64,000 nucleotides of DNA, from positions 62,001 through 126,000 of the forward strand of contig JADFMN010000007.1 in NCBI GenBank assembly GCA_022563855.1. Reading direction: 5' to 3'. The stretch is from Armatimonadota bacterium (lineage in GTDB: Bacteria; Armatimonadota; Fimbriimonadia; Fimbriimonadales; Fimbriimonadaceae). This document shows, in pieces, positions 10,623 through 62,050 of this stretch. The notes beneath the pieces were generated by a model, which saw only the letters and a list, made by a program, of their open reading frames with translations, did not search any database and had not been told where the DNA came from. A program made the translations under genes and the position numbers. Each line of letters starts with the position of its first letter. The first letter of the stretch is position 1.

Positions 10623-12500
10623 CTACGACGGCACAAGAGAGGTGGCGTTTCTGTTCCGGATGTTGGGGATGCAGCTGGACTGACCACCGTCCACTTTGTA
10701 GCCCAGCTCCTTGAGCTTCGTCACGAGCTGCTCGCGGAGACGCTCGACGCCTTTGGAGTCAGTCGGTACGTTGGGGCTGCGACGGCTTGCGTCTACTAGC
10801 GACTTGAAGAGCATGACGGTTACCGCGTCGCCCATCGTCTGGCCTTCGTAAGGTCCTCCGAACCACTGGTGCCATATCTTGCGTTCGTCCTGGTCCGGTG
10901 CTGGTGTCTCGTCGCGAATCCTGTCGATGAGGAGCTCGATCGCTTGTTCTTGCCCGTCGAGTCCGAACCGCCTCCGCGTTGCAATTCCCATGAGTGCATC
11001 GATCTGGACCGGCGCGTCGGCCTCTCTGTAATTCTCGCCGAACCTCGCCCAGAGCGCGTCGTCAGCATACCGGTCCATGAAGTAGGCTGCGTCTCCTGCG
11101 TCCCATCGCTTCTGCTCGTCGGGTGGGCCGTCGAACGCCTTGTCAAACCAGGAGACGAAGACTGACCTGGCGTGATCGATCGAAACGGACGGCAAGATTC
11201 TCATCGCATAGCGCGCTCCCCCTAGCGGGCCCTTCTCGCCGAACAGTCGCAGCATGGCGACCTTCTCATCGTCCGTGAATTCGCCTTCCACGACGACGTC
11301 GGCCATGCCGAACGTCGAGTATTGCCCTTGTCCTACCAAGCGCATGTATGTCGCCTTGAAGTCCTGCGGAAACTTGGTGACGTACTCTCTCTGCACGCCT
11401 CTCCTTGCTGAGTGGTCGTGGAACTCCATCGCAACCCTGAAGAAGATACGTTTGTCATCTTCTTCTCTCGATCTGATCCATGCATCGACGAGTCTTTCGT
11501 ATCCGGTTTCTGGGCGGACAGCGACGTCGCCGTTCGTGATGTGGCTGATCAGGCTCGCTATGACGGATGACAGCCTCAGCGGCTCGCCCGACGAGTTGTT
11601 CATCTGCGAGATCGAGTAGCGCGTCAGTCGTTCGTCTTCTATGTGGCGCTTGAGCGCTGGCAGGGCGTCGACTCCGCGCTCCAATATCCGCTTCATGGCT
11701 TCCGAGTACTCAGGTTTTTGGCTGATCGTCATGTGCCCACCCTCCGATAGCAGGTTTTCGATCAGACGTTCGACCTCGTCGTCCGGGATCGGAAGCAGGG
11801 CAACGGTCTGCATCAGATCTTTGATGAACTCGTCCCTGAATTCGTTGATCCCCGAAAAAGGCGTGACGATCTTCTTTTCATCGACGACGATTCTTAGTAT
11901 CCGCCCGGAGATCTCGATCCTGTCCTGGCCGACGTCGAACCAGTCGTTGAGCGCGTCGTGCAGCGCGAGATAGGTCACTCTTAGTTCGGGGGTCGCTTCG
12001 CGAGGCACACTGCTCCAACTAGCGCCGGCAAAGACGCCGCCGTACTTGCTGCCGACAAGGAACTGCGCAAGCTCTTTGTGCCCGAGCGAATAGGCTTGAA
12101 TACCGGTCGCAAGCATGTCGTCTTGACCTACCTGACGTGTTCCCCGCTCATCTGAATACCAAAACTGCGACCTGAAGAGCACTCGCACATCTGGGTCGTC
12201 GAAAGAAAGCTCTGTCTCCGCTTGCCGGTACGGCTTCCAGTCGTCGATTGCTCCGCACATGTATCTTGCCTTCCCGTCTTCGCCCGTGAACTTGAACACG
12301 AGGAGGTGAGCCGGCTTGCCAGAAGGAAGCCCTCCTCCGCGCAACCCTGTCTCGAACACGACCGGAACGGCATCCCTTGGCGGCAGCGGGAGACCGTACG
12401 ACATGTACAGCTTGAGCAGCGCGTCGAGATCGATGTCGTCGGTCTTCGCAGGTACAGCCGGTGCTGACAGCATTGCGACCAGAATTGTTGCCCCTACCAT
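10623..12500 (-). CDS. Exported hypothetical protein, paralog A of a pair
   Basis: Not recognised. A 625-aa protein with an N-terminal signal sequence (MVGATILVAMLSAPAVPA). It is similar along its whole length to the gene at 13021-14883: shared blocks include YGLPLPP near residue 35, LATGIQAYSLGHKELAQFLV, RVTYLALHDALNDW and, near the end, WFGGPYEGQTMGD then a short helical tail. It is rich in aspartate, glutamate and aromatic residues and looks helical. The last 18 or so residues, after LKELGYKVDG, are not shared with the paralog and are read antisense from the oligopeptidase relic. A TATACT box 6 nt before the ATG suggests leaderless transcription. Confidence 0.85.
   Translation of the reverse strand: MVGATILVAMLSAPAVPAKTDDIDLDALLKLYMSYGLPLPPRDAVPVVFETGLRGGGLPSGKPAHLLVFKFTGEDGKARYMCGAIDDWKPYRQAETELSFDDPDVRVLFRSQFWYSDERGTRQVGQDDMLATGIQAYSLGHKELAQFLVGSKYGGVFAGASWSSVPREATPELRVTYLALHDALNDWFDVGQDRIEISGRILRIVVDEKKIVTPFSGINEFRDEFIKDLMQTVALLPIPDDEVERLIENLLSEGGHMTISQKPEYSEAMKRILERGVDALPALKRHIEDERLTRYSISQMNNSSGEPLRLSSVIASLISHITNGDVAVRPETGYERLVDAWIRSREEDDKRIFFRVAMEFHDHSARRGVQREYVTKFPQDFKATYMRLVGQGQYSTFGMADVVVEGEFTDDEKVAMLRLFGEKGPLGGARYAMRILPSVSIDHARSVFVSWFDKAFDGPPDEQKRWDAGDAAYFMDRYADDALWARFGENYREADAPVQIDALMGIATRRRFGLDGQEQAIELLIDRIRDETPAPDQDERKIWHQWFGGPYEGQTMGDAVTVMLFKSLVDASRRSPNVPTDSKGVERLREQLVTKLKELGYKVDGGQSSCIPNIRNRNATSLVPS
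10639..10683 (+). pseudogene. Relic of an oligopeptidase 3' end
   Basis: Read on the plus strand this gives EVAFLFRMLGMQLD and a TGA, matching the oligopeptidase C-terminus EMAFLFRMLGIEVAA. 25 of 26 bases are identical across the core from GCGTTT to GGGGAT. No longer open frame supports a whole gene here. It lies 770 bp downstream of the parent end, after the metallopeptidase gene, and is antisense to the tail of the large minus-strand gene. Confidence 0.7.
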
Positions 12501-12506
12501 GGCTCT

Positions 12507-12512
12507 AGTATA
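12507..12512 (-). promoter_or_regulatory. -10 box (leaderless-type) of exported paralog A
   Basis: TATACT on the minus strand, exactly 6 nt before the ATG at 12500. Paralog B has the same box with the same spacing, so transcription should start at or next to the start codon. No good -35 hexamer is evident. Confidence 0.6.
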
Positions 12513-12572
12513 TCAGGGTCGCCCGCGACTCTGTGAGTAACTGTTCTCTATTGCCCCGCGAGTTGCTTGCGG

Positions 12573-12578
12573 TACAGT
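12573..12578 (+). promoter_or_regulatory. -10 box (leaderless-type) of the DUF1801 gene
   Basis: TACAGT 6 nt before the ATG at 12585, back to back with the opposite promoter of paralog A. Confidence 0.5.
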
Positions 12579-12584
12579 TTCCCC

Positions 12585-12992
12585 ATGAAAGGCCAACTCG
12601 ACGTCGAGACACCGGAAGAGTACATCGCTGCCCTCGAAGAGCCGAGGAAGTCTGAGATTCAGCGGATCCACGACCTGATCCGGAGGACGGTGCCGGACCT
12701 GGAGCCGCACATCCGCAGCAAGATGATCGGCTACGGCACGTACCACTACAAGTACGCAACCGGCCGCGAGGGCGACTGGTTCAAGATCGGCTTGGCCAGC
12801 AACAAGAACTACATCTCGATCTACGCTTGTGGTGTGTGCAAGGGCGGGTACGTCGCAGAGCTGAACAGGCACCGGCTGCCGAAGGCGAACATCGGAAAGA
12901 GCTGCATCCGGTTCAAGAAGCTGGACGACCTAGACGTCGATGTGCTGAAAGAGATCTTCCTGATCTGCGCTGACGGCGACTACTCGACGTAG
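12585..12992 (+). CDS. DUF1801 / YdhG-like protein
   Basis: A small (135 aa) soluble protein of the DUF1801 superfamily, whose biochemical role is not settled. The typical start TPEEYIAALEEPRKSEIQRI and the GYGTYHYKY and FKIGLASNKNYISIY blocks are present, and the C-terminal helix contains a conserved-looking GKSCIRFKKLDDLD. The start at 12585 follows a TACAGT box by 6 nt. The codons for EIFLICADGDYST at its end recur 50 bp downstream, beyond a palindromic repeat. Confidence 0.85.
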   Translation: MKGQLDVETPEEYIAALEEPRKSEIQRIHDLIRRTVPDLEPHIRSKMIGYGTYHYKYATGREGDWFKIGLASNKNYISIYACGVCKGGYVAELNRHRLPKANIGKSCIRFKKLDDLDVDVLKEIFLICADGDYST

Positions 12993-13012
12993 TTTGCGGT
13001 CGTCCGCCGTGA

Positions 13013-13050
13013 CCCTCTCCCTAACCCTCCCCCAAGGGGGAGGAGATTTT
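13013..13050. repeat. GC-rich palindromic dispersed repeat, copy 2
   Basis: CCCTCTCCCTAACCCTCCCCC-AA-GGGGGAGG then AGATTTTCC, almost identical to the copy at 7649. It lies between the DUF1801 gene and a second copy of that gene's last 14 codons. The end of the neighbouring minus-strand gene (SSPLGEG and stop) is encoded inside it. Confidence 0.85.
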
Positions 13051-14883
13051 CCTGATCTGCGCTGACGGCGAGTACTCGATGTAGCCCAGCCTCTTAAGTT
13101 CCCTCAGTAGTCGTTGCCTAACTTCCTCGACGCCTGCGGCGTCCTTCGGCGGACGTTCGGTGAAGGGATTTCGCACGACGATTGCCTTGTACAGCATTAC
13201 CGTGACAAGATCGCCCATCGTCTGGCCTTCATACGGACCGCCGAACCGGCCGGGCCAGTTCAGTGGGTCGCGCGTTACTGGAACGGCGCTCTCGTCTGCC
13301 ATCATGGCCATCAACAATTTGACTGCGGGATCACATCCGTAGACGCCGTCGCCCCCGACTGAGAGACCTGCGATCAACCAGATTTTTGTGGTCGAATCTG
13401 CATGGACGAGAACCCGCTCGAATCGTTCCCAGAGTTCCTGGTCGCCTACCCTGACCATGTAGTATCCGATTTCCATCGGCCTCCACCCTTTCAGCCCATT
13501 GCGCTCCTGACTCGAGAACGCTCTCTCGAACCATGAAGCAAACACCCTGCGCGCATCTTCAACAGAAAACTTGAGCAAGTTTCGGATCGCCCAGCTTGCG
13601 GCTCCATCCACTTTTTCGCCGAACTTCGTCAAGACGGACACCTTCTGATCATCTGTCAGATTGCTGCTCGGAATACTTTCTGCCAATGCGCCCATGTTGC
13701 CAGTGCCTTCCTCAATCATCTGTTCGAGTTTCTTAAGGAAATCGCCCGGAAACTCCGAAACGTATTCGCCGAGGGTTTCGCATTCCGGATAGATTCTCCC
13801 ATGATCAACTACGGCCCGAAAATAGATTGTCTTGTCTCCGGTTTCCTGCCATCTGAGGTACGCGTGAGCGATCTCTTTGCCGTAGGCTTCGGACCGACCG
13901 CAAACATATCCGTTCGTTACCAGACTCAGTACTTCAGAAACGAGATTCCCCACCCTCAATATCCCGGGGTGCGAGTTGTTCATTCCTTGGTAGGGGATGC
14001 CAGTCAGCCGGTCATCTTCGAGATGCTCTGCCAGTGTAGGAATAGCGTCGGCGCCAAGTTCGACAAGGAGGCGCTGGTGCTCAATTCGGATTTCGAGTGA
14101 GCGAGACAGTAGCCGCCCCTCGACCATTACAAGCCCGTCTATCAAGTACTCAATTGGGTTATCGGGCAGAAGGCTAATCCTAACCGTTTCTTGTAGTGCT
14201 GACATGAACTTGTCGCGGAACTCGTTCATGAGGGAATACCGACTATAGATCTGGCCTGTCGCGACGATTTCTTGAATCCGTTCAGCTACCTCAATCCTGT
14301 CATGTGCTGGATCGGTCCAGTCGTTGAGTGCGTCGTGCAGGGCGAGATAGGTCACTCGGCGTTCATCGGAGGCCGCTCCCGAAACGCCATACCAACCTAT
14401 TCTCGCGAATTGGCCGCCGCGGTCGTTGCTCACCAGAAATTGTGCAAGATCTTTGTGCCCGAGCGAGTACGCCTGCATGCCGGTCGCGAGCATGTTGTCT
14501 TGTCCGACATCTCGCGAAACTCGTTCGTCGGAGTACGACCAGTCCGACGACAGCAATGCACGGACTTCACCATCCTGGTGCGAGAGTTCCGTTTCTGTGT
14601 TGTCCTGCGGCTTCCAATCATCGACAGGACCGTACATAAATCTCGTCTTCCCGTCTTCGCTTGTGTACTTAAAGACCACGATATGGGCTGGGCCGCCCCC
14701 TGGAAGATCTCCGTCCCTGAACCGGGTTCGAAACACGACCGGCACGGCGTTCTTGGGAGGAAGTGGAAGGCCGTAGGACTTGTACAGATCTAGCAGCTTA
14801 TCAAGATCAACGTCGTCAGCCGTTGTTGCAATAGGTGTAGACCACGCGAAGAGCGCGGCGACCAGAATTGTTGCCCCAACCAC
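13021..14883 (-). CDS. Exported hypothetical protein, paralog B of a pair
   Basis: Not recognised; whole-length paralog of the gene at 10623-12500. I start at the GTG at 14883, giving VVGATILVAALFAW, because it aligns with the paralog's start and has the same TATACT-N6 spacing. An ATG 19 codons upstream would put the promoter inside the gene. The signal sequence is followed by shared blocks (YGLPLPP, MLATGMQAYSLGHKDLAQFLV, YLALHDALNDW, RFGGPYEGQTMGD). After LKRLGY the tail is antisense to the duplicated DUF1801 end and to the palindromic repeat, so the true ancestral C-terminus was probably replaced. Confidence 0.85.
   Translation of the reverse strand: MVGATILVAALFAWSTPIATTADDVDLDKLLDLYKSYGLPLPPKNAVPVVFRTRFRDGDLPGGGPAHIVVFKYTSEDGKTRFMYGPVDDWKPQDNTETELSHQDGEVRALLSSDWSYSDERVSRDVGQDNMLATGMQAYSLGHKDLAQFLVSNDRGGQFARIGWYGVSGAASDERRVTYLALHDALNDWTDPAHDRIEVAERIQEIVATGQIYSRYSLMNEFRDKFMSALQETVRISLLPDNPIEYLIDGLVMVEGRLLSRSLEIRIEHQRLLVELGADAIPTLAEHLEDDRLTGIPYQGMNNSHPGILRVGNLVSEVLSLVTNGYVCGRSEAYGKEIAHAYLRWQETGDKTIYFRAVVDHGRIYPECETLGEYVSEFPGDFLKKLEQMIEEGTGNMGALAESIPSSNLTDDQKVSVLTKFGEKVDGAASWAIRNLLKFSVEDARRVFASWFERAFSSQERNGLKGWRPMEIGYYMVRVGDQELWERFERVLVHADSTTKIWLIAGLSVGGDGVYGCDPAVKLLMAMMADESAVPVTRDPLNWPGRFGGPYEGQTMGDLVTVMLYKAIVVRNPFTERPPKDAAGVEEVRQRLLRELKRLGYIEYSPSAQIRKISSPLGEG
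13043..13084 (+). pseudogene. Second copy of the DUF1801 3' end
   Basis: Reads EIFLICADGEYSM and a TAG on the plus strand. It matches 12951-12992 at 39 of 42 bases with the stop codon kept. It starts inside the right end of the palindromic repeat and is antisense to the tail of exported paralog B. Confidence 0.8.
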
Positions 14884-14889
14884 GCATTT

Positions 14890-14895
14890 AGTATA
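14890..14895 (-). promoter_or_regulatory. -10 box (leaderless-type) of exported paralog B
   Basis: TATACT on the minus strand, 6 nt before the GTG at 14883, the same geometry as paralog A. Confidence 0.6.
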
Positions 14896-15038
14896 GCGAT
14901 GACAGTCGGTCTTGTGCGAGCTTATGCCGTCAATCCGCACAGCTCATCTGTACGACCTCCAAAACTCCGGTGGCTACTCGAGGCATTCTACGCGTCAATC
15001 TCGCGAACGAAACTGCTTCTTCCTTCCATGGTCTGGCG

Positions 15039-60995: not shown

Positions 60996-61865
60996 GTGTT
61001 CAAGCGGCTGATGCACAGCGTGGACCGCATGCTGCGGCGTGGGGTCATCGACGATGCGCTCTATGAAGAGCTCGAGGAAGCGCTGCTGCAGGCCGACACC
61101 AACGTCAACACCGTGCAAGACATCCTCGACGATCTTCGCAAGGACGTGCGGTCGAACAAAATCCGCGACGCGAAAGGGATCAAATTAGCTTTGCAGGAGT
61201 CGATCGCTGGTCGCTTTTCACAAAGCGATTCGTCCCTTGCCGTCGGCGCTTCGTCTCCGACTGTTTACCTTTTCGTAGGCGTAAACGGTGTCGGAAAAAC
61301 GACGACGATCGGCAAGCTCGCTCACCGCCTGACTCGTGCGGGCCGCAGCGTGCTTCTGGCGTCTGGCGATACGTTCAGGGCAGCGGCGATAGAGCAGCTG
61401 CAGGTGTGGGCGGACCGTTCCGGTTCCGAGGTCGTTAGCGCACAGGCAGGGGCCGATCCTGCGTCGGTCGTGTTCGACGCGGTTGCAGCCGCGAAAGCGC
61501 GCAAAATCGATTACGTTCTGGCCGACACTGCAGGCCGGCAGCACACGAAGGGAACGTTGATGGCGCAGCTGAAGAAGGTCGTTACGATCACAGAGCGAGC
61601 GCTCGGCCGCAAGCCAGACGAGGTTCTGCTCGTGCTAGATGCGAACACCGGCCAGAACGCGATCAGGCAGGCGGAGGAGTTCATCAAATCCGCAGGCGTC
61701 ACCGGACTGATCCTGACAAAGCTCGACGGCACGTCGCGCGGCGGCGCGCTCATCGGCGTTTGGGACCGGTTCCACGTACCGATCAAACTGATTGGAGACG
61801 GCGAGAAAGTAGAGGATCTGCGGGACTTCGACTCGGCGGCTTTCGCCGAGCAGTTGTTCGTCTGA
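60996..61865 (+). CDS. ftsY: Signal recognition particle receptor FtsY
   Basis: The SRP GTPase at the membrane that receives ribosome-nascent chain complexes. It has a short N-domain and no acidic A-domain (289 aa in all). The GTPase motifs are GVNGVGKTTTIGKLAHRL (G1), GDTFRAAAIEQLQ, DTAGRQHTKGTLMAQLKKV (G3), TKLDGTSRGGAL (G4) and GDGEKVEDLRDFD. The start is a GTG. Its last codons (SAAFAEQLFV) recur at 61980 beyond a split palindromic repeat. Confidence 0.96.
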   Translation: MFKRLMHSVDRMLRRGVIDDALYEELEEALLQADTNVNTVQDILDDLRKDVRSNKIRDAKGIKLALQESIAGRFSQSDSSLAVGASSPTVYLFVGVNGVGKTTTIGKLAHRLTRAGRSVLLASGDTFRAAAIEQLQVWADRSGSEVVSAQAGADPASVVFDAVAAAKARKIDYVLADTAGRQHTKGTLMAQLKKVVTITERALGRKPDEVLLVLDANTGQNAIRQAEEFIKSAGVTGLILTKLDGTSRGGALIGVWDRFHVPIKLIGDGEKVEDLRDFDSAAFAEQLFV

Positions 61866-61871
61866 TTCATA

Positions 61872-61951
61872 CCCCCTCCCTAACCTTTGCACGTCATGGC
61901 TCTCCACCGGAGACCCTTGACGGCAAATCCCAAGGGGGAGGGGACTCGTCC
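61872..61951. repeat. GC-rich palindromic dispersed repeat, copy 3 (split)
   Basis: Left arm CCCCCTCCCTAACC (61872-61885) and right arm CCCAAGGGGGAGGGGAC (61929-61945) match the other copies, but about 43 bp replace the CTCC between them. The inserted piece has its own hairpin potential (CTCTCC with GGAGA; CGTCA with TGACG). Further similarity to copy 1 follows (TCCGGAC). Confidence 0.8.
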
Positions 61952-61979
61952 GGACGCAACCTGAAGGATGCGGCTACAT

Positions 61980-62012
61980 TCGGCGGCTTCCGTCGAGCAG
62001 CTGTTCGACTGA
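61980..62012 (+). pseudogene. Second copy of the ftsY 3' end
   Basis: Reads SAASVEQLFD and a TGA, matching SAAFAEQLFV and stop at 61833-61865 at 29 of 33 bases. It lies 115 bp after the ftsY stop, past the palindromic repeat. Confidence 0.7.
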
Positions 62013-62050
62013 TCGTATAGGTCGTATAGGACTTCTTCGACCTAAACGAT
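62012..62050. terminator. Hairpin between ftsY and tyrS
   Basis: ATCGT-A-TAGGTCG pairs with CGACCTA-A-ACGAT around a 13-nt loop (12 pairs, one mismatch). It covers the tyrS stop codon and could end both convergent transcripts. Confidence 0.5.

Follow-up and report, generated by a model that had tools for sequence, protein, structure and literature searches.

The window, a stretch of 64,000 nucleotides from an Armatimonadota genome (3.18 Mb, in a 22-contig assembly), contains a small gene of the DUF1801 family whose end occurs twice. The gene itself is intact, and a second copy of its last codons, stop codon included, lies beyond a short palindrome. The features of the locus, in window positions, are the following:

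12585..12992, plus strand: DUF1801 gene, 135 aa, intact (open reading frame; Pfam PF08818; homologues at most 67% identical)
12951..12992, plus strand: gene-end copy 1 (T1), the final 13 codons and TAG
12993..13011, plus strand: 19-bp spacer from the T1 stop codon to the palindrome
13012..13048, plus strand: REP-like palindromic element, ACCCTCTCCCTAACCCTCCCCCAAGGGGGAGGAGATT, 37 bp (about 45 similar copies; 64 loci; predicted fold)
13026-13032 and 13037-13043, plus strand: arms of the predicted hairpin
13043..13047, plus strand: GAGAT microhomology, common to the right end of the element and the first bases of the gene-end repeat (12951-12955)
13043..13084, plus strand: gene-end copy 2 (T2), 39/42 identical, with its own in-frame TAG
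13021..14940, minus strand: geneB, convergent, a paralogue of 10623-12500 (minus)

In T1 (GAGATCTTCCTGATCTGCGCTGACGGCGACTACTCGACGTAG) the DUF1801 gene (Pfam E=6e-15) has its genuine terminus, encoding EIFLICADGDYST followed by the stop; T2 (GAGATTTTCCTGATCTGCGCTGACGGCGAGTACTCGATGTAG) encodes EIFLICADGEYSM, likewise followed by a stop. Alignment and translation confirm what a preliminary description had reported, namely that the two copies agree at 39 of 42 bases and that both run in frame to a TAG. The pair is the sole direct repeat of at least 24 nt within 12500-13200, and its flank score of 33 exceeds 30, the 99.9% level of a null in which the left and right flanks of the 64 palindrome loci were compared with randomly paired flanks. 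Two of the three mismatches lie at the repeat ends. At 13048, T2 has the T of the palindrome's GATT end and T1 has C; at the C-terminus, T2 gives Met and T1 Thr. Many DUF1801 homologues end in M or I (FGM, FSI, WAM, WGI), as T2 does, so that the T at 13080 can be read either way, as ancestral or else as contributed by the neighbouring gene. Judged from these homologues, T2 keeps a final residue of the M/I type, which T1 has lost.

How did the gene come to end twice? One answer is that T2 is all that survives of a second DUF1801 gene, a tandem duplicate or an incoming homologue, whose tail alone persists beyond the palindrome. The final Met of T2 fits this idea. Against it, the likeness begins where the palindrome ends, with no remnant of more upstream parts of the gene, and the genome holds one close DUF1801 homologue only. 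The known homologues stand in different gene contexts.

The palindrome had also been described as lying within the 50 bp that separate T1 from T2, its right end merging into the repeated codons, and this is indeed the arrangement: its final 6 bases (GAGATT) double as the first 6 of T2, and the two meet without a gap. The structure is T-X-T, gene end, insert and gene end. The 5-bp microhomology (GAGAT) at this junction was measured at the DUF1801 locus only, those of the mutS2/cdd and ftsY loci described below being judged by eye; at random junctions, 5 bp or more would occur with a frequency of about 0.1%. As for the 19-bp spacer, the genome was searched for a donor or a second copy and none was found. 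Comparison of the insert with the flanking genes gave no convincing homology, though a decayed tandem unit would predict some.

The convergent geneB reads antisense through T2, and its stop codon is supplied by the palindrome. At the right end, TGTAGCCCAGC is common to geneB and its paralogue; consequently, the DUF1801 stop codon in T2 falls inside conserved codons of the neighbour, and from this it appears that the DUF1801 gene and geneB probably abutted or overlapped prior to the event. No relative has the locus, and no empty site for it was found, geneB and its paralogue being essentially confined to the source genome. The DUF1801 gene is flanked by these two minus-strand paralogues, neither with a Pfam match; their family has a third, distant copy in the same genome and a weak match in 1 of the 60 relatives' genomes.

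The palindrome belongs to a family recognised at about 64 loci of the genome; exact matches to its left arm number 44, compared with 1 in the control. The element, with a consensus of about ACCCCCTCCCTAACCCTCCCCC-loop-GGGGGAGGGGA(T/C)T, is predicted to fold as a hairpin. It is REP-like in being a short palindrome with many, mostly intergenic copies, intergenic position having been scored for part of them; one copy is found within argS, in frame. In REPs the palindrome is preceded on its 5' side by a conserved tetranucleotide, as a rule GTAG; no GTAG stands there in the copies inspected. There is an inverted, REPIN-like pair at C1:408875 and 408996, and most copies, that of the DUF1801 locus included, are single.

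In many copies CGGAAAGGACTT and some 10 additional bases come before the palindrome (e.g., C18:10268 and C3:71682), so that the full repeat may reach about 60 bp; the DUF1801 copy is without that head. The copy in argS, the arginyl-tRNA synthetase gene, is part of a composite of two REP-like palindromes in frame (...DEQAPSPLGEDEGGGAEGKPDTLSPTLSHRRGS..., G000:C6:67589-67699, minus strand), recalling the palindromic elements that some Rickettsia genes contain. Hairpins of a second dispersed family (CGTCCGGACGCAACCTGAAGGATGCGGCTACA) often form inverted pairs about 70 bp apart.

Repeats derived from genes flank the palindrome at four loci: DUF1801, ftsY, mutS2/cdd and an M32 carboxypeptidase gene. 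At these few borders the gene-end copies measure 34-73 bases, and the gene is left whole. The second case lies in the same window, and comprises:

61833..61866, plus strand: end of the ftsY (SRP54-type GTPase) gene, ...AFAEQLFV and stop, copy 1
61871..61946, plus strand: long-loop copy of the palindrome behind ftsY
61947..61978, plus strand: copy of the second dispersed hairpin repeat (CGTCCGGACGCAACCTGAAGGATGCGGCTACA)
61980..62013, plus strand: ftsY end, copy 2, with its TGA stop, 30/34 identical

The SRP54-type GTPase gene is almost certainly ftsY. Its flank score, 26 (p 0.003), is below the 99.9% null of 30. The insert consists of two dispersed repeats and ends within 1 bp of T2. ftsY is normally a single-copy gene, and a lost second ftsY is therefore unlikely.

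The mutS2/cdd locus (C6:126044) provides the best evidence for insertion and duplication as one event. Here a 67-bp repeat (63/67 identical), made of the final 10 codons and stop of mutS2 and then the first 9 codons of cdd, surrounds a 107-bp insert. Over 101 bases this insert aligns with the composite repeat inside argS, the alignment falling short of the ends of the insert by no more than 4 and 2 bp, which identifies the insert as a copy of the repeat unit. In 12 relatives the stop of mutS2 adjoins the start of cdd or overlaps it, with no extra spacing. From the abutting genes of these relatives and the homologue of the insert within argS, the locus is read as a derived insertion of the repeat with flanking duplication.

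The M32 locus (C9:63732) is of another kind. The final 24 codons and stop of the gene are duplicated at 86% identity, and since the palindrome itself is part of the duplicated unit, this is a tandem duplication. A third repeat also lies between the copies (G000:C9:63732-63968).

Collectively, these loci bear on several explanations. An assembly error is unlikely because the two copies differ at every locus. Relics of lost second genes might be seen in the M32 copy, which retains its stop codon, and cannot be seen so easily at ftsY or in a mutS2/cdd repeat that covers two genes; as an account of the DUF1801 locus, a lost homologue is unlikely. Gene 3' ends of 34-73 bp with the stop retained also resemble attachment sites by which an integrative element restores the gene it enters, and each locus could be the remnant of such an element, shrunk to two att copies. 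The four targets are unrelated, each has the same palindrome and no trace of an integrase, and one repeat covers a gene end together with a gene start, so that this origin is scarcely credible.

A more serious rival reverses the order of events: the gene end would first undergo a short tandem duplication and so gain a functionless spacer, in which a palindrome could settle later, nothing in the spacer being under selection. Short duplications of this sort do exist here free of the palindrome (28 codons at a glutamine-synthetase-like start, L181:2855), and the M32 case matches the tandem clusters of REPINs with their flanks known in Pseudomonas (PMC3116915). The inserts, however, meet T2 within 0-4 bp in three of the four cases (DUF1801, ftsY and mutS2/cdd), and a later insertion would have had to hit the border of the two copies each time. 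Duplication first is, for the DUF1801 locus, conceivable and rather doubtful.

How frequent are such doubled ends? At about 55 of the 64 palindrome loci no flanking repeat exceeds the null, and several of the remaining high scorers are other dispersed repeats or arrays. At C4:203087, C1:214144, C1:408990 and C8:55740 the flanking repeats were discounted as dispersed repeats or tandem arrays; the one at C4:203087 may overlap a gene end. Among 20 palindrome loci in 7 other genomes of relatives, no gene-end duplication was clearly of the same kind. The control comprised the window and twenty 12-kb samples (240 kb), 304 kb in total; once arrays, dispersed repeats and repetitive coding sequence were excluded, it contained one gene-end duplication away from a palindrome, in frame at a glnA-like start. 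This is the palindrome-free case of 28 codons just cited (L181:2855-2991, i.e., G000:C1:22854-22990). Gene-derived cases thus number 4 in about 50 independent palindrome loci against 1 in an estimated 281 control junctions (Fisher p=0.002), an excess that is suggestive only, because the denominators are estimated and the criteria were chosen after the fact.

These counts divide the proposal of the preliminary description. That an element entered at a gene end and doubled the terminus, leaving the gene usable, gains from the recurrence at ftsY, mutS2/cdd and M32 and from the relatives without extra spacing between mutS2 and cdd. That the doubling is a property of the palindrome itself is not supported: the genome-wide search for direct repeats flanking it, productive at four gene-derived loci, came up empty at about 55 of 64, and the second hairpin family shows a gene-end duplication at 0 of 14 loci. 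With so many palindromes lacking such a footprint, long duplication is not their regular habit.

The same counts disfavour transposition by a mechanism under which this family would regularly produce target duplications of about 40-70 bp. In its favour are the T-X-T structures with T of 42, 34 and 67 bp and the nine Y1-transposase (Y1_Tnp) domains of the genome. Besides the roughly 55 loci without a duplication, the variable length of T speaks against it, since a target-site duplication would be of constant length, and so does the lack of any palindrome copy in the flanks examined at eight Y1 loci, where a REP/RAYT pair would place one. Target duplications are not known from Y1 (HUH) transposases of the IS200/IS605 type. 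A dedicated transposase beside the palindrome was considered and discarded, none having been found there. Regular transposition of this kind is very improbable.

The account we lean towards, if not strongly, is that the REP-like DNA arrived as a copy, made during break repair or by template switching at microhomologies. A tract of replication or repair would copy the end of the DUF1801 gene, switch template into REP-like palindromic DNA and copy the palindrome, re-enter the gene via the GAGAT microhomology 42 bp upstream of its exit point and then proceed into the neighbouring gene; a single event would yield the gene end, the palindrome and the gene end once more. Across the cases, the return point would lie 34-67 bp upstream, and the inserts are for the most part repeat DNA, as such a tract would leave. 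An equivalent route would be a widely staggered break repaired with filler DNA, giving the same T-X-T product. The microhomology at DUF1801 and the templated insert at mutS2/cdd are compatible with template switching; the spacer without a donor, the lack of an empty site for DUF1801, the plain tandem duplication at M32 and the roughly 55 palindromes free of such a footprint count against it. No Ku gene was found in the genome, and classical end joining (NHEJ) is therefore disfavoured. The pattern is drawn from one genome, and from it we infer the order of events.

Why should the duplicated parts be gene ends? This is probably survivorship: an insertion without duplication would cut one of two abutting or overlapping genes, and selection at tight junctions would retain the events that double the gene end. 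Overall, the locus looks like a copying or repair accident at a hairpin rather than the work of a targeted mobile element.

Mycobacterial interspersed repetitive units insert at tight stop/start junctions and leave both genes usable, as here; they duplicate a few overlap bases only, unlike the 34-73 bases of the present cases. In plants, staggered breaks can be repaired with filler between the duplicated stretches. Our structures resemble such staggered-break tandem duplications, patch-mediated repair in plants included, in that tens of bp are duplicated at a repaired break, and differ in that those events are described from eukaryotes and largely Ku-dependent (PMC8355091 and papers cited there). 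Of 90 novel rearrangement junctions in E. coli, 22 fell within REPs, most of these having homology of insufficient length for recombination, and template switching was invoked (PMC3161906). Shared with that microhomology-mediated process (MMBIR) are the palindrome at the junction, the few bp of microhomology and the insertion of nearby sequence; the scale, in contrast, is tens of bp here and kb there, and our reconstruction comes from one genome. With REPs and REPINs (PMC3116915, PMC8266576) the family shares short, intergenic, palindromic units that number in the tens, some of them forming inverted pairs (C1:408875) or tandem clusters that take in the flanks; unlike them, it is without GTAG at the hairpin foot, was not found beside the Y1-transposase genes of the genome and has some copies flanked by duplicated gene ends. 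Among open papers, a literature search returned no report of gene-end duplication at REPs.

The movement of REP-like palindromes is described as unresolved (PMC3116915, PMC8266576). It is possible, and here we can be tentative only, that those of this lineage spread partly without a transposase, by template switching during repair that leaves a long target duplication, compact gene junctions keeping the cases in which a gene end is doubled. A long-duplication footprint, recurring within a single genome, would mark repair or replication error as one route for palindromes, and any group that has closely related strains could serve to test it. If true, this would account for the harmless entry of palindromes into genes that overlap or abut.
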